In this document: positions 7,901 through 46,799 of the stretch, piece after piece | How positions within the stretch are numbered: the first letter of the stretch is position 1 | Layout: each line of letters begins with the position of its first letter | Assembly: GCF_003073045.1 (NCBI RefSeq) | Contig: NC_037601.1 | Location: 10,217,807-10,281,806, forward strand | Direction of reading: 5' to 3' | DNA from: Pomacea canaliculata | Lineage: Eukaryota > Mollusca > Gastropoda > Architaenioglossa > Ampullariidae | DNA length: 64,000 bases | The notes under the pieces: model-generated | Seen by the model: only the letters and a program-made list of their open reading frames with translations | Told to the model about the DNA's origin: nothing | Database searches by the model: none | Position numbers and translations under genes: made by a program

Positions 7901-10900
7901 CACTGTCATTAGAGTTGTATAAAATAGGAATTAATGCCACTTTCTGTCTTCTGTCATGTCATTACATTAACAAATAAGTAATAATGTAACGTGTTGTCCT
8001 TGCAACATTTGCATTCAAGCTTTTTTTTGAGGAGACTTACAGCACACCCACACAATTTTTTGAGGAGCCTAACAGCACACACAAGCAACCGGCAGCGCGC
8101 CTCCATCCTTATCTGTGTGACTGGGTGGCCCCGTCTGAACAACTTACTGTTTGCAGGGTTAAAAACGGTTGGCACTTTTGTTTATTCTCATATTTGCTCT
8201 TTGTTGTTGCTTTTACCAGGCCTTTTCATTTCGATAAATTTAATTATTGCATTAGCCTCTCTGCTCACTGCTATGGTGAGGCTGTATAGACTTGTAGACC
8301 TCACGAAATGTGGTGAGATTGTGTCGACTGTAGGCCTCACTGCGGTGAGGTTTCGTGGTCTGAAGGGTCCATTGCTTGTGGACGGCAGGGCTTGTTGTGG
8401 AATGGTTGAGGACATGCAGAGAGTAGGGTTCACTGTGGCGAGATTGTGCAGACAGCCAGACTAACGCGGTCAAACCATTGTGGTCCTGCACTTCTCGCAC
8501 ATCACGACAGTGGTGGCATCGGGTGGGGCAGCAAGTGGTGTTTCTGTCCACGGAAAGAGACTGGAGGTGGGGGGGGGGGATACAGACAGGGTAAGAAGGT
8601 TCTGGAAGGGGCAGACCGGATACGCTATACTTGCAGGGTGTTGGTGTGAACAGGTGGGAACGAAATGTTTGTGTAGACCGATGCCTGGGCATCAAACACA
8701 TGTTGTACGTGGTATGCATATTTGTCAATCATATTAGTGAATAACTGAGAGAACTTGTGTATGTGTGTGGGCCCTATTTTCCCAAACCCCTAGCTTCCTT
8801 CCTCCTCACCTCCTCTCTCTCCCAAACACACACACCCATGCACCCTGGCGTGTTAATTTGATGCTGCACATAAACAGCCTGAAGAGCGGAGGGCTCAGTG
8901 GAAACCTGAAGGAAAATTTCTGGGTCAAGGGAGTTCCTATCGGCGTGAGAAGCAGGGGCTGGAGTGGAAGGAAAAGAAGAGGAAAGGACTGTTTATCAGA
9001 AGTGATGGATGGATGGAGTTGAGCCTCTTTACGAACACTTCACGTAGAAAATTGATGTGAAACGAAGATGACACTGGCCTTGCGGTAGATTAATTTAATT
9101 TTTTTTTAAATTTCGGTATCCAGGCTAACATTTTGCAAGTAAAAAAGCGTTATGAGCGGCGCTCAGTCGTGAATCGAAAGCTCTGAGCTATCAGTGGAGA
9201 CAACGCCTCCTACAGAGGGTACAGTCAATGTAGATTGCTGTATCCACATAATCACCAAGCAGAGAGAAATTGCATTAAAATGGTAGGTCACATGAGTGTT
9301 TGGCGACGGTGGAAGGTTCCTCGCAGTGAACCTGTTTGTTCAAAAAGGAAAAAGGCAAAAAGCTACAGACAAGCTAGCGCACAGAGGAACTAGGAGGATA
9401 TAGACCCACAACATGATGATAAAACCAGAAACGATCGTGGACAAAACAGAAAAACAGAGACAGCTGCTTCAATCAGCCTGTTAGGCGACGGGACATTAAT
9501 CTGATTTTTAAGGACGGTCAATATAGAGAGGGTACTGTCAACGTACGAAGGGTACACAGTCAACATACAAAGGGTACACAGCGTACATAGGGTACATAGC
9601 GTACAAGCTTTCAAGCGGTGCAGTCAGCAGGAAATACGGAAATGGATTGTAATGGGTGTGGGGAGTGGATCTGGTCAAACAAGCTCCTTAAGTTGCAACA
9701 TAAATTCTGTGCTTGGTTCTCATCTCTCATACCCATTACAATGGCGGCTGTTGTGGCGGCAAGACATAAACACGATGATCTTATTTCGTCCATAAGAAAG
9801 CATTTATTGTAAGTAAATATAAGAAGGCATGTGTGCTTTTGAACATTGACTTACGTCCCAGGAAGCAAGTGGCTGTACAGCTAAGAGGTCATGGACTTGA
9901 CAAGACGGGCACGCACATGCGCAAAAGGCGTTTTAATCAATACTCGGTTGTTCCGTAGCACCACATCCATAACAGACATCTTTCATCACTGTCCACATTT
10001 ACTTATTGCTCGTGTATAGGGCACCACGAATCATGTACATTTTGCACAGGTATAGGGTGTCTCGAACCATGGCCAGTGCCATCCTCTCTAGTGAAACACC
10101 TGTATCTCAGGTGAAGATATTGCTGTCCTTGATCCCAAAATAACAGCATGGTCTTTGATAGATTTAGATATTACTTTCTTTGCATTTAAAAATTAAATAT
10201 GACACGAGAAACTACGTTCAATGATGATGATGATGATTTATTAAAAGGGAAAAGCAGGTTTCTCCAAATGTAACATTTAGAAGAGGGAGGGGGGGTAAGC
10301 ATGGGAGACGACATAAGGCAATGAAATCGAAGCACGATACAAATAAACAACCAGCCACAAGCACATCCATCATGGCGATGAGCGCTACTCACCGCAAATA
10401 GATGGCAGACAACAACAGCAAGGCCTATGGTAAGAGGCGAGGATCCACCCAGGTCGGTGCGGGCCGAGTCTCTGGACGCGAAGACGGCGAGGACGAAAAG
10501 GAAGGTGATGAGCAACTCTACCCCGAATGCCTGGGCGGCCGTCAGGTCGGACGAAATGATGGTGGCACCAAGGTCACCCCTTCTGGTCGCGGGGGTCAGC
10601 CCATACAGCGCGCCGGCTCCCAGAATGCCTCCAATGATCTGAGCGACGATGTAGAGAACTCCGCGGATGATGGAAACTCGCCTGGTGACAAGAGCCGCCG
10701 CCGTCACAGACGGGTTGAAGTGGCCGCCGCTGATGTGGGTGAAGATCCACACAGTGGTGCCAACCGCCAAGCCGAAGGCCAGCGAGATTTGAACCACGTC
10801 AGGTGCCGACCAAGGCACCCAAGCGCCGCAACCCAGCAGCACGATGACCAGGGTGCCCAGGGTCTCGCAGGCCAGTGACCGCCACAGGTTGGGGCTCAGC

Positions 10901-10935
10901 AAATCTTCCACGTTGTCCTTCATGATCTTCCACAT
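4702..10935 (-). CDS. AQP: AQP4-like aquaporin (water channel), 3 coding exons
   Basis: Predicted 292-aa major intrinsic protein, a six-helix membrane water channel. Coding exons on the minus strand are 10935-10393, 7561-7481 and 4956-4702; both introns are GT...AG and phase 0. Landmarks: helix 1 about residues 20-40; SLAF/GLAVG helix 2 about 48-67; loop B motif SGGHFNPSV with NPS at 74-76; loop E motif [10 protein letters not shown] with NSA at 190-192; [10 protein letters not shown] across the last junction; and an acidic, Pro/Thr-rich cytosolic tail. The aromatic/arginine filter residues by alignment to AQP1/AQP4 are F54, H178, A187 and R193, the water-selective set. Both asparagine boxes deviate from NPA, and the usual Gly before ASMN is Arg. 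Introns are 2.8 and 2.5 kb. The sequence is closest to vertebrate AQP4 from memory; orthology is inferred. Confidence 0.95.
5490..5541. mobile_element. fragment of a hAT-like MITE (one end)
   Basis: Ends ...TCTGGCCCACCCCTG, the reverse complement of the CAGGGGTGGGC type of hAT terminus, preceded by GGGCCGGTCCAGAG. No opposite end was found, so this looks truncated. It lies in aquaporin intron 2. Confidence 0.4.
6741..6784 (+). repeat. 44-bp dispersed repeat, copy 1
   Basis: Reads AAAACGAGGC...TTCCGGTTTAGTCACATTC. Its reverse complement is at 12016-12059 with 41 of 44 positions identical. Class unknown; the two copies bracket the 5' half of the aquaporin gene. Confidence 0.7.
7372..7487. repeat. 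tandem duplication spanning the aquaporin exon 2 donor
   Basis: The 15-bp string covering the last exonic bases and the donor (CTACTCACCCAGTGG on the plus strand) is at 7473-7487 (real junction) and again exactly 40 bp away at 7433-7447. A shorter copy (AGCTACTCAC) is at 7372-7381. Shared CGTAATAAC spacers show they are tandem units. Confidence 0.8.
7481..7561 (-). CDS. AQP: aquaporin coding exon 2 (loop E, second NPA box)
   Basis: An 81-bp exon, too short to stand out as an ORF. It codes INYTRASMN / [11 protein letters not shown] / RIWNNHW. It has an AG acceptor (complement of 7562-7563) and a GTGAGT donor (complement of 7475-7480). It joins in phase to exon 1 (...HLFA) and exon 3 (VYWVGP...), which reproduces the family order [29 protein letters not shown]. 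The donor end is duplicated in tandem downstream in the intron. Confidence 0.92.
7641..7782. repeat. 40-bp tandem repeat, 3.5 copies
   Basis: Near-identical 40-bp units start at 7641, 7681, 7721 and 7761 (partial), each beginning TTACAGTGTTGACATC. It lies in aquaporin intron 1, about 80 bp from exon 2. The copies are almost unmutated, so the expansion is recent. Confidence 0.95.
7790..10185. other. aquaporin intron 1, remaining part
   Basis: Non-coding. It holds imperfect GGTGAGGTTGTGTAGAC-like repeats at 8270-8450, a G-rich run near 8565-8580 and a short degenerate tandem repeat at 9525-9605 (units near GGGTACACAGTCAACATAC). No exon or RNA gene seen. Confidence 0.5.
9525..9605. repeat. degenerate tandem repeat, unit about 25 bp
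   Basis: Repeated GGGTAC(ACAG)TCAACATAC-like units, about three copies, in aquaporin intron 1. Confidence 0.6.
10393..10935 (-). CDS. AQP: aquaporin coding exon 1
   Basis: Codes residues 1-181, starting [11 protein letters not shown] and ending AVVVCHLFA, followed by a strong GTGAGT donor (complement of 10387-10392). It contains helices 1-4, most of helix 5 and the NPS box. The open frame runs past the donor, so the last 68 residues of the unspliced frame are intron. Confidence 0.93.
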
Positions 10936-11059
10936 AATCCGCTTATCCCCAAGTTTTCGGCGTTAAAACCCTCTGCTTCTTATCCCCAGGCACGACAAGA
11001 ACGACAAATGAAGTGGACGATACTGCGAGGTTCTGCTGCTAGAGTGGGAGGGGAGATAA

Positions 11060-19560: not shown

Positions 19561-20643
19561 AGGCTGACATCGCTGTACATGTTACCTGTGTCATCAGGTG
19601 TACAAGGGTTAACATGTCTGACCACTGCAGGCGGACAGACTGGACTTCAAAACTAAAAAGACTGAGGTAAGGCGTTTGTTCGCGAGGCCCAAACAGGTGT
19701 CCGTCTTTTCTGACATTTGTGACAAATCCTGTGTATCATGCCCGTCGGTCTGTAGGTACCCTGGCTTGTCTGATGCCTATTATGTCTGAGTAGCTGTAGA
19801 TTGTTGTCGCCATATCTTTGAAGAAATATCATCACAAGATAGACACGGGAATTCACTAACATCGTCAGATTTACTTTTTCTTCTACTATTTGCAGCTGAC
19901 TTTAATATCACCAACTGTTGTTGGGCGAAAGAAACAGATTAGAACCCCACATCAAGCACCCTATTTCTTTAAATTAAAACAAAAATTATCTTTGGAAAAG
20001 GTGGTCTCTTAGGAAAGAGTGGGTTTCAACAATAAGTTTGTGTGGGGGTGCGTGGGTGTGTCTGGATGTTCCAGTGGGTGGGGAGGGAGAAGGCCTTCCT
20101 AAAGAAGTTTCGAGAAAGAGTCAGTGATGTTCTTTGCCAGGAATAGTAAAGAAGTTTGGAACAGATCCCACTCTGATGTTTAAAGCAGTCCTAAAGTTTT
20201 TCTACTAAAAAATGTCTGTAAATAATATAAGCAAAAATAAAATAAGAAAGATCTCTGCTAGTTTTCACTGATAGTTACCAGGTTTTCACTAGTAGCTCTC
20301 CATTGTCAGGGTAGTCTAGATGCTTTGGGGAATGAAAAACATGGATTTCCATTTTCACGTACATAAGCTATATTTTATGTTAAAGATGTGTTTAGACCCT
20401 TGTACTGTATATTAGGTGCTTTTCACCCTTCCGTAGATAGTCATTAGTGTCACGGGACACTACTCTGACAAAGGTAGTGGTTACGACGGATTATTTTTCT
20501 ATATTTTTCTATAGATGTGTTATGCTAGTGTTTATCCCTGACAGAATTTTTTTGTTGTTGCAGAAAGACAACTTACTTTCAAATTGTCCTGCTATTCGTT
20601 TAAGAATGTTACTATGGCAACTGACAAATTCTAACTTTTCAGA

Positions 20644-21906
20644 ATGTTGAACATGACCTTAGTAAGTAGTCCTCCGTTCAGCTCTGCATCCATAGTAACT
20701 GGCAAGACAGAGGCAGTCTGGACACCAGGTGAGACTGACAGAGGGACGTCACTCGTGCCAGAAGGCTGTGTGGTGCTGCGCTTTACAGATTATGTCCCCT
20801 GGAGTAATCCCCAGATGCTTATTTCCCAGGAAGTGGAGGAGCTGTTCCAGACGGTGGTCTTCTCGGCACTACTGCCTCTGTCGTTTCTGATCAGCGTCCC
20901 GACCAACATCATCAACATGATCGTCTTCTACAAACACGGCCTCAAGGAGCGAATCAACGTGTGTGTGTTTTACCTGTCTCTCGTGGACATGCTCTATGTT
21001 CTTCTGGCCTTTCTTTTTCAAGGCGACACCATGTACCTGAAGATCAAAAACATGTCCCGGTACAGCCTCATCAGAGGGTTTTTCATTGTCAACAAGATGG
21101 CTGGCGTTCTGGGCGTGTTCTGGGTGTCTACATTCGTCTCCATGGTAATCGCGTGCGAGCGCTGCTTTTGCGTCATGAGTCCCTTAAAAGCCCAGAGGGC
21201 GCTGCAGACCAAGACGACAGTGGTGGTGCTGATGCTGGTGTCCCTGGCCATCATCGCGGCCTACTTCGTGGTGGGAGCTCGCTGGACTGTCACGTGCGTT
21301 TTAGATACATCGTCCAATGTCACGTCCTTGACCTCCTACCCCAGCAGCTTTTACCTGAGCCATCGGAAGGCCATCGACACGCTGGACGGCGTCGTGTACG
21401 GCCTCGTCCTGCCCAACGTGTGCGTGGGAGTGGTGGCGCTTTGCACAACCATCACCATCGTGAAGCTGCGAATCATGGCGACCTGGAGACACCAGTCGTC
21501 GTCTGCTGACACAGTCTCCACCCGTGACGTGGCACTCACCCGGATGTTGATCGGCACCTCCCTCGTCTTTATGGCGTGCAGCCTTCCGGGCATCGCATTT
21601 CGCACCGCCATGTTGTTCGTGCCCGACCTGAGTGTCGACGGTCATTACCGCAATGTCTTCTACCTGTTGTTTTTTATGCACCAGGAGGCCTCCTACCTCT
21701 GCTGCACTTTCAACTTCTTTGTTTACTATAAATACGGCACCAAATTTAGAGACACGGTACGTGACATGTTTGGTAATTGTAATCATAGATGTGCATTCTC
21801 TTTTAAGAAACATTCCCCAATAATACCAAAGCATCGTGACATAATGTCTAAGCAGTCTGATATTAGCGAGCAGCATGGGGCCATGAGGCACACATCAGGG
21901 GCTTAG
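20644..21906 (+). CDS. rhodopsin-type (class A) GPCR, molluscan chemosensory-receptor-like
   Basis: Intronless 420-aa receptor predicted in the plasma membrane. Extracellular N-terminus of about 68 residues with an N-glycosylation site (NMT, 3-5). Seven hydrophobic helices at about 70-95, 104-126, 147-171, 191-213, 249-273, 299-322 and 338-362. Class A landmarks: LSLVD in helix 2 (D115), ERC in place of DRY (172-174), P257 in helix 5, CSLPG in helix 6 and NFFVY in place of NPxxY (357-361). Extracellular loop 2 has C218 and an NVT site. The chosen ATG has A at -3. A pyrimidine-rich stretch with CAG lies just before it, so an intron in the 5' UTR is possible. It resembles lophotrochozoan orphan/chemosensory receptors from memory; the ligand is unknown. 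Confidence 0.9.
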   Translation: MLNMTLVSSPPFSSASIVTGKTEAVWTPGETDRGTSLVPEGCVVLRFTDYVPWSNPQMLISQEVEELFQTVVFSALLPLSFLISVPTNIINMIVFYKHGLKERINVCVFYLSLVDMLYVLLAFLFQGDTMYLKIKNMSRYSLIRGFFIVNKMAGVLGVFWVSTFVSMVIACERCFCVMSPLKAQRALQTKTTVVVLMLVSLAIIAAYFVVGARWTVTCVLDTSSNVTSLTSYPSSFYLSHRKAIDTLDGVVYGLVLPNVCVGVVALCTTITIVKLRIMATWRHQSSSADTVSTRDVALTRMLIGTSLVFMACSLPGIAFRTAMLFVPDLSVDGHYRNVFYLLFFMHQEASYLCCTFNFFVYYKYGTKFRDTVRDMFGNCNHRCAFSFKKHSPIIPKHRDIMSKQSDISEQHGAMRHTSGA

Positions 21907-28900: not shown

Positions 28901-29405
28901 GTTTGATTCAGACACTGTGGCAGGTGGACAAGACTCAGCGATTCTATTTTACGGCTGGACTTGGCGATCACACTCCAGGCCCTGCAGCTCGGTTTTCTGA
29001 CCGTGTGAGAGCAGGCAGTGGTATGATACATCTGCACCACAGGAAGCGCGACAGAAATCTGCCACAACTAAAATTTGCTGCTTCATGAACATTCTACAAA
29101 GTGTCACCCAACACAGACACAAAAAGGTTTGTCGTGTTTTTTTCCCCTTCTGCTATGGAAAAATTTCAATATTAAAAATGATTTGTCGTAAGGCGAAAGT
29201 CCTCCTCCTCAGCAGCAGCAGCAGCAGCATGTGTATTTGCGCATATGCTCCTTTATATTTTTTGTATTATTATTGTCTGTCATTACCATGTTATGCATCA
29301 ATCTCTTATTGTCTGTCATTACAATGTCGTTCATCATTCTGTTTATTATGTTAGCGGACGGAGGTCAGCAGTTCAGTTATGCACCAAAAGCCACAACAGC
29401 ACAAC

Positions 29406-29609
29406 ATGCCCCTTGTGCTGCTTGTGTTAACAGGCAGCAGTGTCATGGGGTCAAGAACAGAGTGCAGGGGTCATCTACAGTCTCTCAAGTCACTGCTGCT
29501 CGATAGTTACAGCAGCGGCTGCCCACCTGTTGAGGAGAATAAAGCAACCGTTAACGTCAGCCTCGATGTGCACATCGCCGCCATCTTGGATCTCAACGCC
29601 GTTAATCAG
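29406..29609 (+). CDS. receptor exon 1 (signal peptide, N-terminal helix, strand 1)
   Basis: Codes 68 residues ending LDLNAVNQ, followed by GTTTAC, a weak donor but at the conserved position. The start MPLVLL is chosen because it gives a hydrophobic leader; an in-frame ATG nine codons upstream (29379) would only add polar residues. Confidence 0.82.
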
Positions 29610-32600
29610 GTTTACGACATCAGATCTTGAGACCAACTTTAGTGCTTTAACGTTAAGAAACATGAAATGATTCGTACTGTTGGCTACTAACTGTAAATGA
29701 CGATGTCTCTTGTACTGTTGGCTCATTAGAAAACGCGGTGTCAGTTGTTAATATTTGCTGCAGTCTTGACCGGTGTGTTATATTCTGCGAATCCTGTCCA
29801 GTGTAATGTACACCTCACACGGTAGGAAGATCGGTAGGTCCTGTCTACATTGTGCTTGACATCCCATGGTATAAATGTCTGCAGGTTCTGTCGAGTGTGG
29901 TCTACATGTCGCTGACGTGGCAGGACCCAGCTCTAGCGTGGAACGTCACGGACTGGCAGGACGTGGACCTCATCAGCCTGCAGGCCGGCGAGGTGTGGAC
30001 ACCGCAGCTGGTGTTAGTCAACAACGTCGGCGACAACCTGGTGAGCGATCGCAACAGACACTGACACCAGAAATAGGGGGAGCAACAGAAGGTAGGAGAG
30101 GAATTGCAGTGGAAAAAGCAGAATGGGGTAGGGATGCAAAAGACAAAGGAAGAGATGCACAAATAAAGATACGCTGGACAGGAGGGGAGAATAGTGATTT
30201 ACGTTGAGCCAGCAACTGTTATGTCTAAACGAAACAGTCGACCTTGGAAACAGGTGCTACACGCAGAGAAGGAACAGTGTACCTGAGACGAGATCTGAAC
30301 CCAGGAAGGCCAGTCATCACTTTAAAGGTGACAGACGCTAACCATTGCGCCACTGGATCACTTAAAATGGACAGGAAGAGAGAAAGAGAGGATGGGAGAG
30401 AGCGGGAGAGACTTACAAGCACAGATAATATAAACAGCAAGAGAAAAAAAAACTTTCTCAAGTTTTTTTTCTTCACACGTGAGGCATAAGCCCCTTAAAT
30501 GCGTACCTTAAATATTACATTATGATCTTGACATGGCTATGACTCTGTAACAACTTGTATCAGTTTTTACCTGGACTACCTGTATGCAGTTTTTGTGTGT
30601 GTGTGTGCAGGTGGTCTCCAGTTATGACTCTGTACATGTAGACTGGCAAGGTAACCTCATCGCCAGTGTCTTCATGAAGCTTGAAACCACCTGCGAGATA
30701 GACGTCAGCATCTACCCTTTTGATGTTCAGAATTGTCGGGTAGGTAATTCGTCTTCTGGGGGTTAAAAATTGCCATGTATGTGTCAGCTGACAGCTGAGT
30801 GTTTGTAGTGTCAGATACGTAAAGTCATGTATAAACCACTGTTTGAGGTGTTCACAGTGTCATGTACACCATGTGCAGGCAGTTGTAGGCGATGTTATCA
30901 AAATTAAAATAACAAAGACTGGGGTCATTGTCAAAATATGACGTTTGAAATATTAACAGCTGTTGGTATTATGCTGATGACTGCTTATGATTCGATGTAC
31001 TATATGATTACTATTCCATGCCTTTTTGTTTATTTTAATAACTGGCATCATTGACTAGAGGATTACAAAGCAAATTATATTTGCAGTAGTAACTGGAAGA
31101 TTAATTGAGTATTTATGTATTGTACAGATCATGGTAGCACCATCCTATCACTCCAGGGTGACCTTTACTGGAACAAGCTTAACCTTGACCTTTATGAACG
31201 TGACCTATATCTCGGGTGAGTGGGAGTTGAAGGCGGCGAACTCTCATGTGAACCAGGAGCTGTTGGAGATCCATCTACAGCTGTCCAGGCAGTGGCGCTT
31301 CTACACTTTGACAATCATCCTGCCCATTGTGCTCCTGTCCCTCACTGGGGCCTGTGGCTTTCTCCTGCCTCCGCAATGTGGGGAAAAAGTTTCTTTTCAG
31401 GTCAGCAGGTTAGACGTAAATCAGAGAGTAAATGGAGAGCCAGCATCAACCCTCTTCCCTAGACATCCCTTTCACAATCCTACATCAGTTCCGGTCGTGA
31501 AACAGTCCGTACATTATACTCACGAAGAATTTATTATTATTGTTGTTGTTGTTGTTGTTGTTTGGTGGTGGTGGTGGTGGTGGTGGTGGTGGTGGTGGTG
31601 GTGGTGGTGGTGGTGGTCTTTGTTAAATATATCTATATTGTTACTCTGGGCGGGGATGCCCCTATGGAAACGAGTCATGTTTGAATTTGGTGGAAGAATG
31701 TTGAAAGAATGCGCGCGTCGTGCCTGTTTGGTGTGACATTGTCGCTGTCAATGTCTGTACAGGTTGTTATCATGGTGTCGCTGTACAGGTTGCTATCATG
31801 GTGTCGCTGTACAGGTTGCTATCATGGTGTCGTTGTACAGGTCGCCATCATGGTGTCGCTGTACATGTTGCTATCATGGTGTCACTGTACAGGTTGCTAT
31901 CATGGTGTCACTGTACAGGTTGCTATCATGGTGTTGCTGTTTGTACAGGTTGCTATCATGGTGTTGCTGTTTGTACAGGTTGCTATCATGGTGTTGCTGT
32001 TTGTACAGATTGCTATCATGGTGTCGCTGTACAGGTTGCTATCATGGTGTCGCTGTACAGGTTGCTATCATGGTGTCGCTGTTTGTACAGGTTGCTATCA
32101 TGGTGTCGCTGTTTGTACAGGTTGCTATCATGGTGTTGCTGTTTGTACAGGTTGCTATCATGGTGTCACTGACGCTGTATCTGAACTTCATCAACGACGC
32201 CATGCCCAAGACCTCCACCAAACTATGCGGGTTTGCCATCTACGTGGACCTGTTGCTGCTGCACAGTTGTCTCGCCTTCCTGGCCACACTGACCGTTCTC
32301 AGCGGCCAGCACCAACTAGCCAAGTTGGACCGGGACACAAAAGTGGTCATGATACAGGAGCCGGGTAGTGTAGCCACTATTGAACACACTTGTAGGCTAG
32401 GGATGAGGGGTTTTCTTGCTGCTGATCGCACACTTCATACGCTAAATGACAAAAAAATCTGTAGTGTAGACTTGCTAACTTTAAGCCCTGAGGGAGATGT
32501 GGACTAGAGGGACATTGTTTCAGATAATGCTCTGACAAGCAGGTACAAGTAGCGGCATACTTATTGACTTATATACTTGACCTTCTAGACCTCTTGACTT

Positions 32601-33098
32601 TTGTACTTGGTGACGTTTATACTTATTGACTTACATATTTTATGGTGTCATTTTTCACATAACTCTCTGAGAATCAGAAACAAGTGGCGATATGCTTATT
32701 GACATATACTTGGCAAGTCTACTAATTGACATATACGTGATGGTAACATGTTTCAGATAACGCTCTGACTAGCTGAAACCAGTAACGGTATACTTCTTGA
32801 CATATATTTGATGACTTTTATACTTATTGACTTGTATACCTGATGGTGTCATGTTCCAGAAAGTGCGACGACAATCAGTCGAGATGACTTTGTGGCGAGT
32901 GCTCCACGCACACACCTGGAGACTGTGCGGACTGCGGGCCGCGAATGGGTTAACAAGCTGCGGCAGTGCGTACGGCGATGGTACTGTTGTTGCTGTTGTT
33001 TGCCACCTGAATCGCTCGACAAATTCTTCTTCTTTTTCTTCTTTTCTACAGCAGCAGGTCTTCCAACAGGTCTATATATGTTGTTTGTGAAGATGTGA
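29406..33098 (+). CDS. Cys-loop ligand-gated cation channel subunit (nicotinic-receptor-like), 6 exons
   Basis: Predicted 404-aa pentameric-channel subunit. Coding exons are 29406-29609, 29885-30040, 30611-30739, 31128-31400, 32151-32364 and 32860-33098; all introns are GT...AG with matching phases (0,0,0,0,1). A short signal peptide (MPLVLLVLTGS) is followed by the extracellular domain with VNVSLDVHIAAILDLNAVNQ and LTWQDPALAWN, then WTPQLVLVNN, then a Cys-loop with exactly 13 residues between C148 and C162 (...YPFDVQNC). Helix M1 is about 221-244; CGEK precedes M2 (about 251-275), as in cation channels; M3 is about 280-304. The cytoplasmic loop is short with a CCCCC run, and M4 is about 379-402. 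There is no vicinal Cys pair in loop C, so it is not a typical alpha subunit. The family is clear; the ligand is unknown. Confidence 0.92.
29885..30040 (+). CDS. receptor exon 2 (loop D and loop A region)
   Basis: Follows a TCTGCAG acceptor. Codes VLSSVVYMSLTWQDPALAWN, then NVTDWQDVDLISL, then GEVWTPQLVLVNNVGDNL, then a GTGAGC donor. This is typical nicotinic-receptor content, including the W-x-D and WTP motifs. Confidence 0.92.
30195..30362 (-). mobile_element. tRNA-derived SINE in receptor intron 2
   Basis: Same family as 25054-25244. The minus strand reads GTGGCGCAATGGTTAGCG (A box), GGGTTCAGATCTCGTCTC (B box) and TGTTCCTTCTCTGCGTGTAG, with GTTGCTGGCTCAACGTAAAT near the 3' end. It is more diverged than the first copy; no clear target duplication. 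Confidence 0.85.
30611..30739 (+). CDS. receptor exon 3 (Cys-loop)
   Basis: Codes 43 residues from VVSSYDSVHVDWQGN to CEIDVSIYPFDVQNCR. It contains the diagnostic Cys-loop with YPFD. Acceptor TGTGCAG, donor GTAGGT. Confidence 0.93.
31128..31400 (+). CDS. receptor exon 4 (loops B/C, M1, start of M2)
   Basis: Codes 91 residues from IMVAPSYHSR to CGEKVSFQ. M1 is WRFYTLTIILPIVLLSLTG. The usual GSWTY after the Cys-loop is absent and loop C has no CC pair. The exon ends at pore position 4', so the pore helix is split between exons 4 and 5. Donor GTCAGC. Confidence 0.92.
31530..31617. repeat. trinucleotide microsatellite (GTT)n(GGT)n
   Basis: (ATT/GTT)n followed by about 18 uninterrupted GGT/TGG units in receptor intron 4. 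Confidence 0.95.
31763..32150 (+). repeat. 14-unit tandem array of the exon 5 splice acceptor and pore-helix start
   Basis: Fourteen head-to-tail units abut exon 5. Each begins GTTGCTATCATGGTGTC, the first codons of exon 5 (VAIMVS), and ends GTACAG, the exon 5 acceptor. Units are 26 bp (1-6, 10, 11) or 30 bp (7-9, 12-14, with an extra TTTG). Only unit 4 has lost its AG (ACAT). All three forward frames are open across the array. Starts in frame with exon 5 are at 31815, 31893, 32061, 32091 and 32121. Confidence 0.97.
32151..32364 (+). CDS. receptor exon 5 (rest of M2, M3)
   Basis: Codes VAIMVSLTLYLNFINDAMPK, then TSTKLCGFAIYVDLLLL, then LAFLATLTVLSGQHQL. By alignment with alpha-7, pore position 9' is Val rather than Leu and 20' is Asp. 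Acceptor TTTGTACAG, donor GTAGTG at 32365, phase 1. The open frame continues past the donor to 32507 as intron. Confidence 0.9.
32510..32859. repeat. degenerate tandem repeat carrying exon 6 acceptor-like sites
   Basis: Three diverged units of about 100-135 bp in receptor intron 5 end in ATTGTTTCAG (32523), CATTTTTCAC (32658) and CATGTTTCAG (32756); the true acceptor CATGTTCCAG is at 32859. Each is followed by sequence resembling the start of exon 6 (ATAATGCTCTGACAAGCAGG against AAAGTGCGACGACAATCAG). Confidence 0.75.
32860..33098 (+). CDS. receptor exon 6 (cytoplasmic loop end and M4)
   Basis: Acceptor ATGTTCCAG; the first two bases complete the codon left by exon 5. Codes EWVNKLRQCVRRWYCCCCC, then LPPESLDKFFFFFFF, then STAAGLPTGLYMLFVKM and TGA. 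The hydrophobic end fits M4. The Cys5 and Phe7 runs come from GTTGTT- and TTCTTC-type repeat DNA. Confidence 0.82.
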
Positions 33099-33099
33099 T

Positions 33100-34040
33100 G
33101 CGAGTCTGTCGCTACCTGCCGCCACCCGACTCACAGTACCCGCCTAGATGAGTAGCTGATGGCTAACACGTACAATGAGCCTATAACTTTTTAAAAATAT
33201 TAGCACTAGCTTGTCTGACCATTAGAAGTATGCCACCCAGCTAGTGATGTGGCCACGTGGTCAGCTGTGTACAGATAGTCTATGTGTCATGTACACGTGG
33301 TATGTCTCATTGTCATATATACACGTTTGCTTATGTGTGAAATACACATATTCTGTCTTTCATGCCTAGCCTACACGATGTACATTTATATACAAACAGC
33401 CTACGTGACATGAGTATTGTACAGAATGTGTACACAGTGTGTGGTTTATGTGTAATGTAGGTGTTATATATAAATCGTAATTGTTGTGTGTATTCTATAT
33501 GAAATGCGTAGCTTACATGTTATGTACAGTGTGAGTTACATGCACTCTACGTGTTACATGTAGTCGACGTGTTGTGGGTAATCTTCGTGTTACCGTTTTG
33601 TGTGTGGTCTACGTGCCATATGCAATCTTTATGTTACGTGTAGTGTAGTGCTATATGAAGTCTACATGTTATGTGGGATGTAGGTGCTACGTGTGGTGTA
33701 CGTGTTACGTGTAGTCTACGTGCAAAAGAAGTCTTCTTGCTACGTGTAGTCTAGGCTTTTGTATGATGAGCGTTATTGTAGTTTCTAAGATAAGAACAAT
33801 GGCATTCCACTAATTGCAAGTAGCAATCACTATTTGCGAAGATCATTCACAAGTGCCAATCACACAAAACATTAGCAGTCCTACAGAACAGACATCATTC
33901 ATGCAGATCAATCACATTCCAGTATTTACACAGGATAACCCGATAGTAAGTCAAAGTCAAAGTAATTATTTTTCTGGAACCTAGAATTCCTAGAAACCTA
34001 TTTTTAGTCTCGCGCACAGTCACGTGATCTTATTCGTGTC
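33100..34040. other. downstream of the receptor gene; degenerate GTG/ACG repeats
   Basis: 33260-33750 is built of loose TACGTGTTACGTGTAGTC-like repeats. No gene seen; part may be the receptor 3' UTR, but no convincing AATAAA is nearby. Confidence 0.5.
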
Positions 34041-37514: not shown

Positions 37515-38120
37515 GGATACACTAATTACACATTCATACATCTTCCATATTACTTATACTAATTACACATTCATATAACTTCAATATTGATTACATTAAT
37601 TACATAGTCATACGACTTCCTATTGATTACACTATAATGGCATATACAATTTCCTATTGATTACACTATTTACAGTCATACAACTTCATATTGATTACAC
37701 TAACTACATAGTCATACAGTTTCCTAATAAGTACACTAATTACACAGTAATATAACTTCCATATTTATTGCAATAATTACACATACATCTTTCTATTGAT
37801 TATTTTAATTATACAGTCATAAAATTTCATATTGTTTTTTACTAATTACACAGTATTAGCATTTCATATTGATTACATTGATTACACAGTCATACAGCTG
37901 CCTATTGATTACACTAATTACACAGTCACACAAATTCCTAATAATTACAGTAATTACACAGTCATATGACAACACCATATTGATCACACTAATTACACAG
38001 TAATACAACATTCTATTGATTGCAATATTTTTGCTGATTACACAGTCACACAACTTCCTATTGATTACACTAATTATAGATATACAACGTCCTGCTGATT
38101 ACACTAATCACTAGCTACAC
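37515..38120. repeat. degenerate tandem array, unit about 36 bp
   Basis: About sixteen diverged units built on CTATTGATTACACTAATTAC and ACAGTCATACAACTTC. It fades out toward 38460. Confidence 0.85.
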
Positions 38121-43300: not shown

Positions 43301-46300
43301 AAGTCAAACCATATTAAACACGAGCCTCTGATAGGTATCTATGTATCTTCAGATGGTAAATAGCTGCATTCATAGTGAAAATATGTGTTGATTCTAGCAT
43401 ACTGCTAAGATAAAATGTAGAAGTTTGATTGATTGAATGATTGGTGGAATGTGATGTAGACTCCCTCGTTGGAAACATCAAAGAGGTGATACTGTCAGTA
43501 GCCTAGGAGGTTCTATGGCGATATAGAAATAAGAAACAGGCATGGGTCACGAATGACATCCTAGATCTCTGTGACCCAAGGAACTCACTGAAGAGAGAAA
43601 AGGAAAGCAAACTGGAAGCAGCTTCCAAATACAAAGAAGTGAACTGCACCGTCAAGAAAGGCAGGAAGGTAGCTAGAGAGAATTGGATCGAGAGCCAATG
43701 CCGGGAATGGCACAAGGTGACAGCAAAACGGCCTACCAACTTCTAAAGACCTTCATAAACACAGATCAGCACAAGACCACCGCAGAAGAGCTGCTACCAT
43801 AAGAACAGATTGGTTTCAGATCATGTAGAAGGACAGTTGAGCAGATCTTCAACAGTCGCATTCTCATAGAAAAGCATCTTCCGCATCAGCGGAACCTCTA
43901 CCATAATTTTGTTGACTTTAAAATGAGCCAGTCAACACGAATGATAGCAATGTACATTCAATCAGCATCACAAGTAAGAGCAAGCGTGATTACAGATGTG
44001 TGTGGGTGTGTTTATGTGTGTGTGTGTGAGAGAGAGAGAGAGCGTGAAAATGCATGAAAATTTTAGGTGAGGGGTAAAAACTTAGTCTAAGAAAGAATTA
44101 TCACACTTTGTGGTCTGACGTGACGTTCTATTCATACAGTTTACATTATCTACTAATCCTAACTTTTACTTGACTGTTTAGAGCCCTCACTTGCCCGGTC
44201 AGTGGGAGAAGCGCTGCTGTTCAACCTCCTGTCCACATGTCCGCAGGCGAGCGCCAAGATGTACCACGTGACCCACATCCCCCGCCTGCTGAGGTCTTTT
44301 CTAGACTGGCTAGCCACCCATCACCCAGTCTTGGCGACAACAGTAGCAACGGAGTTAGTTGACAGGCCTTGGGAAAAGGCTTTGATCTTTGCTATGAAAG
44401 CTTGCAGGGAGTTTTTTCGATTAGACGTTGACTACGTCGCCGACTTGACAACGATCGTGTCGACGCTTTTTGTCAAACTCAGCCAGGAGAAAGTCGTCGC
44501 CACGGCAGGGGTACAAATGGGAATGGACACTGGGCGGGAGGGGGAAGCAATGGTAGTACTGGACGTACAGGAGTTGTCACACTTGTCTTTAGACTTCCTC
44601 CCCGCGGCTGAGCGACTGCGCACTGCCGGCCTTCTCGTGCCCGTCACGTCATCAGGTCACCTGGGGCGGCTCACCTTCTGTGACCCCTTTGTGGCGGACC
44701 ATGCGATCAGTAGCATGGTGTCTAGTTTGCCTGCTCCTGACGACAAACATTTGTCCTTTGCCTTAGGAGTTGGCTCCCATCACATAGTCCTTCACCTCCT
44801 CGCGAAGGATGACACCTCTCCCTCACAACCCTTGACGCTACCCTCAATGCTTGTCTCTAGTGCCGACACGTCACTCTCACATCCCCTATCTTCTCCAAGT
44901 GACACTACGCAGCTGCTGCTGGATTGTCTCTCTTGCTATGACACTTCACATCCAGCCTTTGAGTTGGTGGCAGCACTTTCCCCAGAGTGGCCTCCACCTG
45001 CGCATATTGCGGTCAGCACGTGTCCCGCCCTCACACCGGCCCTCAAGCGGAAGCTGCGTCACCTAAGGCTTGACGACGTCGACTGGGAGACGACAGAAAC
45101 GACGCTGCAAGCTGTGGTGTCGGCCACCTGTCATGTTGACCTCAGCAGAAAGCTCAGCGACGCTACAGATGTGGAGCTGCGGGCCGTGCTTGCATGCACT
45201 CAGCTCACCAACTTACCCGGTCCTCTCGTCCTCCGCCCCATGCTTCTGTCGGTCGCCTGGCAGGATCGAAGCCCGCGGCGCCTGGCCAGTCACCCGGCCC
45301 TGAAACTCTGCAACAACCGCCTGCAGGAACGCCACGTGTGCTGTCTAGAGACCGCCATGTTAGGCTTGGAGTCGGTCGCTCACTTTGATCTGTCGGACTG
45401 CGAGGTCAGCCTGACCCATCTTCAGCGGCTGCTGGACGCCATGCCCTGTCATTCGGTTCAAGAACTGGTCTTAAACGGTATACGCCTGACAGACGACAAA
45501 GAAGGACAACTCCCCAAGTTTTCTCACCTGGGAAAACTACGCAGCTTGATGCTGGAGCGTACTGGCCTTCGCGACAAACACCTTCAGCACTTGGGACGAC
45601 AACTCCAGGCACTTCCCGACTTGCGCGAGCTTTCCCTAGCCTCAAATGTCATCACCTCGACAGGGTTGTCACACTTGGTGCCGGCTCTGGCCTCGCGCTC
45701 CACCTTGCGGCTGCTGCGATTGAGTGAGTGTGAGCTGGACGTCGGGTCGGCCTTCGTGATTGGATGCATTCTGGCCGCCGCACGTGATTTGCACGTGATC
45801 AACCTAAACGCCTGTCACCTTCAAGACGATGGGCTCCAGCACCTTGTGCGAGTTCTTCACGACAAACTGCGACTAACCAAAGTGTCCCTGTGGCAGGGGG
45901 GTTACTCTACTGAAGGGCTAATGCCTTTGCTGAAGCATCTGTCGTTGTGTCACAACATGCAGTTCCTAGAACTAGGGGAGTGCACTCTGGTGGATGACAT
46001 GGCTGACCTCGGAGACAAACTACTGATGACTTTAGCTGAATCGGACGTGTGGCACTACCTTGGTCTATGGAAGTGCCACCTGGGCAAGAGCCGCTACTTC
46101 CTGCAAGGTCTGGGTGGACTCACTACACAGTTGCGGGGCCTGGACAAGCTCGTGCTACAGGAGAACGACTTGGACGACGACAGCTTCAGGCTTCTGGCGG
46201 ACGCCGTGCGCCGAGGCGTCTTCAAGTACCTTCGTCACCTGAACCTCATCCACAATCCTGTGACAGAAAGTGGCGCCGTCTACCTGGCTGATGTACTTCA

Positions 46301-46799
46301 CTGTCTGCCTCGACTCCAGGAACTTCTTCTTCAGTATTCTAATATTTCGCCCCAGGGAGCGTTGCGCCTGTCACAGGCCGCTCTCAACCTTCCCGACATG
46401 ACCGTCCTTGACCTGTCAGAAAGTAGCTGCATGACGTCAGACGATGCGCGTGACGTACTACGTGAGGTCATTGCCGCTGTGCACGAGGGAGGCGTAGTGG
46501 CAGGACACGGCGTAGCCTTTGTTGCCGTGGAGGGCGATCTAGAAGATTTTCTGCTGCCCCAGGCGGAAGAAGCGGAAATCTCGGTACCTCACAGGGATGT
46601 TGTACAGGAAGATGGAGAAAGAATTGCACAAAAAGGGGAACCTGCGATAATCACAACAACAGCCACAGAGCAGCCATTTACAGAGAGAGTTGCGTCCCCT
46701 CAACAGTTTACACGTCAAAACGCCATCGTCAACATTGAGGTCGGAGAGGTAGTTGTTGACGATAAGTTCCACATCAAGATCACACGAAAATTCTTCTGA
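40208..46799 (+). CDS. CARD - TRADD-N-like - LRR protein lacking a NACHT domain, 5 exons
   Basis: Predicted 1157-aa cytosolic protein, probably an innate-immune or cell-death adaptor (inference). Exons are 40208-40351, 41037-41202, 42190-42428, 42992-43298 and 44182-46799; all introns are GT...AG with consistent phases. Residues 1-103 form a CARD resembling RIG-I/MAVS-type CARDs (LTDVDEEMIQAKQD...AAWLMLRRLSRRGNW). Residues 104-125 are an acidic linker. Residues 165-285 look like a TRADD-N-type fold (SVTVGCLHVGLRM, then EGGSLVQLLEHGLLTEE, then RIGLRVAI). Residues 286-680 are helical with a stretch like the NLR winged helix (AERLRTAGLLVP...LTFCDPFV). Residues 680-1055 hold about ten ribonuclease-inhibitor-type LRRs (LRELSLASN, LRHLNLIHNP). 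No Walker A (GxxxxGKS/T) or Walker B was found. The start ATG has a good Kozak context (ATCACCATGG). Confidence 0.9.
41037..41202 (+). CDS. CARD-LRR exon 2 (second half of CARD)
   Basis: Acceptor GGCTTGCAG. Codes EMIQAKQDTHGRTHAAW, then LMLRRLSRRGNWVPGL, then LEHLAQKIEDLL plus one base; donor GTGAGT. Joined to exon 1 it completes LTDVDE-EMIQAK, the CARD signature. Confidence 0.9.
41745..42100 (+). mobile_element. LINE 3' end in CARD-LRR intron 2
   Basis: Codes a decayed WNSLP...ESFKRALKTHLFH-like end (AATGGAACTCTCTCCC, AAACACACCTCTTCC), a 3' UTR with AGTACGCGCTTTACAAATTT, then (GTT/ATT)n to about 42100. Same family as 34040-34435. The duplicated exon 3 acceptor starts directly after it. Confidence 0.78.
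42104..42200. repeat. tandem duplication spanning the CARD-LRR exon 3 acceptor
   Basis: Two units precede the exon. Unit 1 (42104-42145) ends CACACCTGTTAG. Unit 2 (42146-42189) starts GTGAGATGGGAGAGTTGACA and ends TATCTGTTCAG. The exon then starts GTGAGGTGGCGATGGAG, so each unit repeats the acceptor plus exon start. Using the upstream AG adds 44 nt and shifts the frame. Confidence 0.75.
42190..42428 (+). CDS. CARD-LRR exon 3 (acidic linker and helix)
   Basis: Acceptor CTGTTCAG. Starts with GT, completing the Cys codon from exon 2. Codes EVAMEVDFVEEEENDMEVDH... to TTVAKEPQH; donor GTGAGC. Its acceptor region is duplicated upstream. Confidence 0.87.
42992..43298 (+). CDS. CARD-LRR exon 4 (TRADD-N-like domain)
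   Basis: Acceptor ACTTTCAG, phase 0; donor GTAAGT, phase 1. Codes VTHLIELYKNIVNT to CEAFLKWVNG. The beta - GSLxxLLExxLL helix - beta order resembles the TRADD N-terminal domain; assignment from memory of the motif. Confidence 0.87.
43450..43935 (+). mobile_element. LINE reverse-transcriptase remnant in CARD-LRR intron 4
   Basis: Translates KQAWVTNDILDLCDPRN, then KESKLEAASKYKEVN, then after an internal gap EQIGFRSCRRTVEQIFNSRI and EKHLPHQRNLYHNFVDFK, which are the linker and palm-start motifs of non-LTR reverse transcriptases. Internally deleted and with stops. Confidence 0.85.
43995..44045. repeat. (TG)n(AG)n microsatellite
   Basis: TG then GA dinucleotide runs, in CARD-LRR intron 4. Confidence 0.85.
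44182..46799 (+). CDS. CARD-LRR exon 5 (helical region, LRRs, C-terminal tail)
   Basis: Acceptor GACTGTTTAG. The first two bases complete a Glu codon; the frame is open for 872 codons to TGA at 46797. The C-terminal 100 residues after the LRRs are acidic and Thr-rich and end HIKITRKFF. Confidence 0.93.

Follow-up and report, generated by a model that had tools for sequence, protein, structure and literature searches.

The window analyzed here, a stretch of 64,000 nucleotides, holds on its forward strand a gene whose product is, by its domains and homology, a subunit of a 5-HT3/nicotinic-type Cys-loop receptor. Six exons, joined via five GT-AG introns, give an open frame of 404 codons. The joined protein has an intact ligand-binding domain (PF02931, E 2.6e-32) with the Cys-loop, and a membrane domain (PF02932, E 1.4e-7; 32.5 bits against a cut-off of 28.1) comprising M1-M3 with a GEK motif. 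When exons 1-5 were used as the query, the best solved chain was 5-HT3A (E 1.7e-32); the other solved chains found were nicotinic subunits and, lower, receptors of the cephalopod chemotactile type. In the standard primed numbering scheme for M2, residue 4' is the last of exon 4 (GEKVSFQ) and 5' the first of exon 5 (VAIMVSLTL). The initial annotation had named the same receptor family, the same exon 4/5 junction and the same M2 site between 4' and 5', and all three were borne out. The exons are as follows (window coordinates; a slash marks a splice point).

29406..29609, plus strand: putative exon 1, start codon to ...NAVNQ, assigned from its open frame, a phase-0 CAG/GT donor and 5-HT3A homology.
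29885..30040, plus strand: putative exon 2, in a joined protein that has the PF02931 match.
30611..30739, plus strand: putative exon 3, with the Cys-loop motif C-x13-C.
31128..31400, plus strand: exon 4, through M1 to M2 residue 4' (...GEKVSFQ).
32151..32364, plus strand: exon 5, with M2 from 5', M3 and the start of the intracellular loop; phase-1 donor CGG/GTAGTG.
32860..33098, plus strand: tentative exon 6, with the rest of the loop, a possible M4 and the stop; an open frame without homology support.

The M4 candidate in exon 6 shows no homology, and no paralog aligns there; this tentative exon carries coding microsatellites (CCCCC, FFFFFFF). Elsewhere in the window lie a minus-strand aquaporin-family exon (10186-10962; PF00230, E 2.2e-44), a single-exon frame of 423 aa that resembles a 7TM receptor (20635-21906; PF00001 below cut-off), and an 878-aa open frame that is leucine-rich-repeat-like by eye (44163-46799).

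The feature of main interest is the end of intron 4. A base-by-base check of positions 31763-32150 gave 14 head-to-tail units, eight of 26 bp and six of 30 bp, each a copy of the start of exon 5 with its acceptor in front. This agrees with the 14 units of 26/30 bp and the repeated acceptor described in the initial annotation, as does its count of 13 AG-bearing units.

31401..32150, plus strand: intron 4 (750 bp), of which the initial ~355 bp lie outside the array.
31563..31617, plus strand: (TGG)18 microsatellite within intron 4.
31733..31762, plus strand: 5' edge of the array, with a GTGAC motif (putative branch point) and the first GTACAG acceptor.
31763..31918, plus strand: units 1-6, 26 bp each, with the AG lost at 31865-31866.
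31919..32008, plus strand: units 7-9, 30 bp each, with a TTTG insert before TACAG.
32009..32060, plus strand: units 10-11, 26 bp each.
32061..32150, plus strand: three 30-bp units (12-14), each in the frame of exon 5.
31867..32150, plus strand: 142-bp segmental duplication, units 5-9 against units 10-14.

Fifteen GTACA[G/T] sites bound the array, ending at 31762, 31788, 31814, 31840, 31866, 31892, 31918, 31948, 31978, 32008, 32034, 32060, 32090, 32120 and 32150. AG is present at 14 of these 15 junction sites and at 13 of the 14 unit ends, the exception being the AT at 31865-31866. Tandem Repeats Finder (TRF) scored the region 31755-32171 at 527 with a period of 26 and at 673 with a period of 142. 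The longer period corresponds to the segmental duplication (31867-32008 against 32009-32150), whose halves match at 137 of 142 positions. Units are on average 94% identical, their variation is confined to 8 columns, and the two unit lengths occur in an ordered pattern. The TCACTG variant of exon 5 recurs in units 5 and 6 only; units 7-9 and 14 are identical, and the most divergent, unit 4, is not an edge unit. At this junction 11 nt of the intron side and 23 nt of the exon side are copied (median identity at least 0.8). Exon 5 itself is open, homologous to the receptor family and intact at the edge of the array. A second large minisatellite in the window (37518-38108; 36-bp period, ~16 copies) is free of CAGGT.

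Where might such an array have come from? A DNA search of all 24 contigs of the genome (440,159,624 bases, with the window at C12:10217807-10281806; simple repeats and common words skipped) returned the array as a single match, and a mobile or dispersed repeat was accordingly rejected. At Rfam gathering scores no known RNA element was found in 29000-34000. The intron 3 acceptor and the start of exon 4 (31105-31149) have TTGTACAG and ATCATGGT in common with the array unit, probably by chance; derivation from that acceptor was unconvincing, the best window ranking 34th of 8,462. A founder model, in which TGTCGCTG of the intron slipped against TGTCACTG of the exon and 10 bp were then lost between CTGT repeats, can be aligned satisfactorily but is suggestive only: once the acceptor hexamer is removed, 103 of 2000 shuffles score equally.

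The reading frames of the units are mixed. Five of the 13 upstream AGs are in the frame of exon 5, their starts (31815, 31893, 32061, 32091 and 32121) being the same five given in the initial annotation, and eight are out of frame. That annotation also stated that no frame has a stop, which holds inside the array but not beyond it, where out-of-frame AGs reach TGA at 32170 in one frame and TAG at 32366 in the other. Clean inserts of the type VAIMV(S/L)LFVQ arise only from 32061, 32091 and 32121, so that the hydrophobic inserts of 10, 20 or 30 residues proposed for the last three in-frame starts were recovered. Starts 31815 and 31893 would give inserts of 112 and 86 residues that consist largely of out-of-phase peptide. 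Neither 26 bp nor 142 bp is a multiple of three. Because the 26-bp units and the 142-bp duplication disregard the reading frame, the variety of frames and the pore-helix content of the array look incidental.

Arrays of this kind, although rarely described, are known. In amphioxus, junction-spanning minisatellites termed mirages are reported from Adh3, globin genes (BflGb6, BflGb9), troponin C and PGBD5; their length is reported to be unstable, and RT-PCR and the Adh3 data are taken there to suggest that regular splicing is undisturbed (PMC3087553, PMC3902484). The array at intron 4 has the same make-up. Its units hold the intron end and the exon start, 14 of 15 splice dinucleotides are kept and the exon is intact; in mirages as reported an intron-exon boundary is likewise copied in tandem, with AG/GT kept in many of the copies, and BflGb6 is affected on the same side (3' end of the intron and 5' part of the exon). 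The differences lie in unit size (14 units of 26/30 bp here, as against 150-160 bp reported for BflGb6 and 10-72 bp for Adh3), in the setting (a mollusc, a Cys-loop receptor and M2 codons) and perhaps in the pattern of homogenization, which in the amphioxus reports spares the array edges and here may not do so in that way, unit 4 being the most divergent.

A second counterpart is the human ABCA7 intron 18 VNTR, whose 25-bp units have the donor GT as their first two bases, and for which exon skipping linked to its length and the retention of a single unit are reported (PMC5954066). As described in that paper, its units are flush with the exon and repeat a splice dinucleotide, as they do here; that array starts at a donor GT, however, whereas ours is on the acceptor side and has exon codons in every unit. 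NAGNAG acceptors, as described, also make AGs compete at one acceptor, but there two AGs lie 3 nt apart (PMC3250501), whereas the 14 AGs here are spaced by 26-30 nt, with a single 52-nt gap. The array thus belongs to a kind of junction-spanning minisatellite that is known, if seldom described. The initial annotation knew of no such case in a Cys-loop channel gene; a search that was not exhaustive found none either, but the kind itself has been described, in amphioxus and in ABCA7. In the open-licence literature, in searches that did not combine molluscs with such arrays, no mollusc mirage was found.

Is intron 4 older than its array? Searching the genome with the receptor gave 33 matches, two of them the gene itself; the other 31, all paralogs, cross the 4'/5' point uninterrupted (stop codons lie inside seven). 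This first suggested intron gain, but the search favours contiguous matches and the pattern is partly that bias, as was seen from a receptor family search and from 15 fetched receptor regions. Several of the 82 matches in the family search have an end or a start near the 4'/5' point. In eight of the 15 regions, read by eye, codon 4' is interrupted by an intron following its first base, 2 nt upstream of the focal site; L032, L034, L035 and L037 show both sides of this intron, and L038, L039, L040 and L043 the donor side only. In the remaining regions an intron lies elsewhere nearby or the reading by eye is unclear. Molluscan nicotinic receptors are reported to form a hugely expanded family in which many copies are intron-poor (PMC6896357). 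The ~355 bp of intron 4 that lie outside the array likewise indicate that the intron predates it. Intron 4 is therefore probably old rather than array-born, and has perhaps slid by 2 nt. None of 37 focal-protein matches in the fetched receptor loci has an array (period at least 10, at least 3 copies) within 60 bases.

The same ~355 bp tell against gain of the intron through AGGT tandem duplication (PMC4974935), under which the whole intron should derive from the copied exon segment. Fission yeast introns that consist of tandemly repeated units with proto-splice sites (PMC3629103) and the AGGT model resemble our case in that each tandem copy has a splice-site-like AGGC or AGGT. Those introns, as described, are new and repeat-built, whereas intron 4 contains other sequence and sits near the ancestral position.

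We consider it likely, on the evidence of the sequence, that we are dealing with a mirage (a minisatellite that grew across an old acceptor), that the exon-proximal junction 32150/32151 is the one used, and that the copies are normally intron. An ordinary minisatellite would have arisen over the pre-existing intron-exon junction and grown from the duplicated end of intron 4 together with the first ~20 bases of exon 5, leaving the units between the old intron end at the 5' edge and the exon body at the 3' edge. Since 32150/32151 yields the family-standard M2, it is the predicted productive acceptor, the copies being spliced out as intron. The last AG could be served by the branch-point-like ATCAT motif of the last unit; the motif lies 20 nt ahead of the AG in each 30-bp unit. 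Use of an upstream AG would lead to a frameshift and premature stop (8 of 13) or to an in-frame insert (5 of 13), and the array is therefore expected to act as a leak, probably length-dependent, on a functional receptor mRNA.

In pyrimidine content the acceptors of the array do not fall behind the four other acceptors of the gene (0.56-0.62 as against 0.50-0.62). Sites that follow 30-bp units are richer in T (8-9 of 16, against 6-7). The tract of the last AG (0.62) equals that of the first site and is not better than those of the other 30-bp sites. Under the scanning model the first AG past the branch point is preferred (PMC1431707), and the branch-point-like GTGAC lies 26 nt ahead of the first AG, use of which would cause a frameshift; taken together, the model and the motif's position would count against use of the last AG. 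RNA structure masking the upstream AGs was considered and rejected. The array folds better than ordinary shuffles of it do (z -3.54; none of 100 equalled it), but when its consensus is compared with arrays of shuffled units, 25 of 150 fold equally well (z -0.93), and the last AG is equally buried.

A broader extension of this reading, in which such arrays feed intron sliding and the focal intron is a slid intron caught mid-process, with 13 spare AGs and a spliceosome that prefers the exon-proximal copy or ratchets through the AG/GT units, is speculative and rather improbable as a whole. Less probable again is that the gene is decaying or a pseudogene, and that the array is tolerated because the product is no longer important. 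The microsatellites of exon 6, its want of M4 homology and the modest PF02932 score would all fit decay; the five GT-AG introns, the 404-codon frame and the intact ligand-binding domain speak against it.

Splicing to any unit would leave CAG/GTTGCT, which could be spliced again, onward to exon 5, and the final mRNA would be the same. The 13 CAGGT on the plus strand of the array allow for this, and exon 1 is predicted to use an equally poor donor, CAG/GTTTAC. GTTGCT, however, has no G at +5, which 10 of 15 predicted donors have (5 of the focal gene and 10 of its paralogs, read by eye), and T at +3 occurs in just one of the 15; such re-splicing is quite unlikely. Slightly more doubtful still is the suggestion of the initial annotation that the array is a source of variant pore lengths, with 32061, 32091 and 32121 purposely used to lengthen M2 by 30, 20 and 10 residues. 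Units 12-14 are indeed all 30 bp, in frame and stop-free, and their inserts are hydrophobic (Kyte-Doolittle means of 2.46 to 2.77). But every insert loses the helix register (by simple geometry, inserts of 10, 20 and 30 residues turn M2 by ~280, ~200 and ~120 degrees), the remainder of the array disregards frame, and the 31 paralog matches are uninterrupted at this site, although the seven with stop codons may include decayed copies. We found no support for it. An assembly artefact or incorrect copy number is very improbable: tandem arrays are difficult to assemble, but the assembly is described as a long-read one (PMC6129957), the units differ at 8 columns, their lengths of 26 and 30 bp come in a set order, and comparable arrays recur with paralog-specific lengths.

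That recurrence emerged from pattern searches of the genome. The acceptor pattern, three acceptor-like TTNCAGGT at 15-45 spacing, gave 251 matches and its reverse 65; the donor pattern gave 499 against 296 for its control, and a third pattern 143 against 105. No enrichment of AG/GT arrays can be proved from these counts, and none is drawn, because matches that share an array depend on one another and the totals are dominated by a few long satellites. The matches listed for the acceptor pattern (C1 to part of C6) form at least 27 clusters, of which we inspected 25, leaving out C5:17886907 and C5:34045004, and six of the 25 lie at a likely coding junction. Among the matches listed for the donor pattern (to part of C3), 16 clusters were found and all inspected, and three span a junction (L079, L091 and L096), L079 being common to both sets. 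The remaining clusters of both patterns are non-coding or unclear by eye. The junction cases are these.

L047, C1:7436 kb, minus strand: WSC exon, with E 3.2e-5 by itself (under the curated cut-off) and 5e-11 once the two sides of the junction are joined.
L079, C3:526000-527200, minus strand: ~12 copies, in 46-bp units, of the last part of a SAM_PNT exon with its donor.
L101, C3:40.46 Mb: acceptor side, 5 junction copies; exon with 3 paralogs at 67-69% identity.
L080: donor side; exon without a Pfam match.
L098: acceptor side; exon without a Pfam match or a second copy in the genome.
L077: array ending 13 nt before an acceptor; Pfam matches below threshold only.
L091: weakly 7TM-like exon (PF00001, E 0.0058, below cut-off; PDB, E 0.0035).
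L096: exon tentatively named beta-lactamase-like (PF00144, E 0.0033, below cut-off; no PDB match), with 18 further matches in the genome.

Among the six found with the acceptor pattern, homology supports the exons of L047, L079 and L101 but not those of L080, L098 and L077. The units of L047, mostly 30 bp and containing TTACAG/GTAGGT, run flush from the donor and occupy a large part of an intron in a WSC-domain gene. The exon of L079 matches SAM_PNT (E 3e-10) and ETV6 (E 3.5e-13), and that of L101 is transporter-like by eye, without a Pfam match. Minisatellites with a period of at least 10 and at least 3 copies make up 4,180 of 190,670 bp examined (2.2%), a sample that includes the window and its receptor paralogs. 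With minisatellites this common, their overlap with junctions would need no special mechanism.

Two of these cases have paralogs in which copy number can be compared. L096 and six of its further matches (L107-L112) are clustered at C3:38.55-38.68 Mb, with donor arrays ranging from none to ~8 units of 29 bp. Three of the seven loci, read at the donor, have arrays (6.9, 4.9 and 7.8 copies), L110 has a decayed remnant, and L109, L111 and L112 have none; the GT donor is kept in all seven. At the acceptor of L101, four paralogs were compared. L101 itself has 4.6 copies and L113 has 2.6, while L114 and L115 each show, on inspection by eye, a single additional copy that has lost its own upstream AG (L113-L115 lie at C5:28.67-28.69 Mb). 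In each of the four the last copy precedes the start of the exon that the paralogs conserve. No stronger evidence was obtained here, and it is drawn from other genes and not from the receptor, that the exon-proximal junction would be the functional one and the copies would be treated as intron. At a common junction the copy number varies from paralog to paralog, and the arrays therefore grow and shrink at conserved splice sites. Junction-linked arrays are thus supported as a recurrent class in this genome, on both the donor and the acceptor side, that turns over quickly at conserved splice sites.

What is new is the setting in a snail Cys-loop receptor and the recurrence of the mirage class within this genome. 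Fourteen near-identical acceptors, in three frames and before one exon, amount to a natural test of how the spliceosome chooses among equal AGs, and each choice would leave a distinct, readable mRNA. The paralog sets (none to ~8 copies at one donor, ~2 to 5 at one acceptor) provide a natural copy-number series. If confirmed, these findings would mean that mirages are no peculiarity of amphioxus, and that gene models of minisatellite-rich genomes may err at such junctions.
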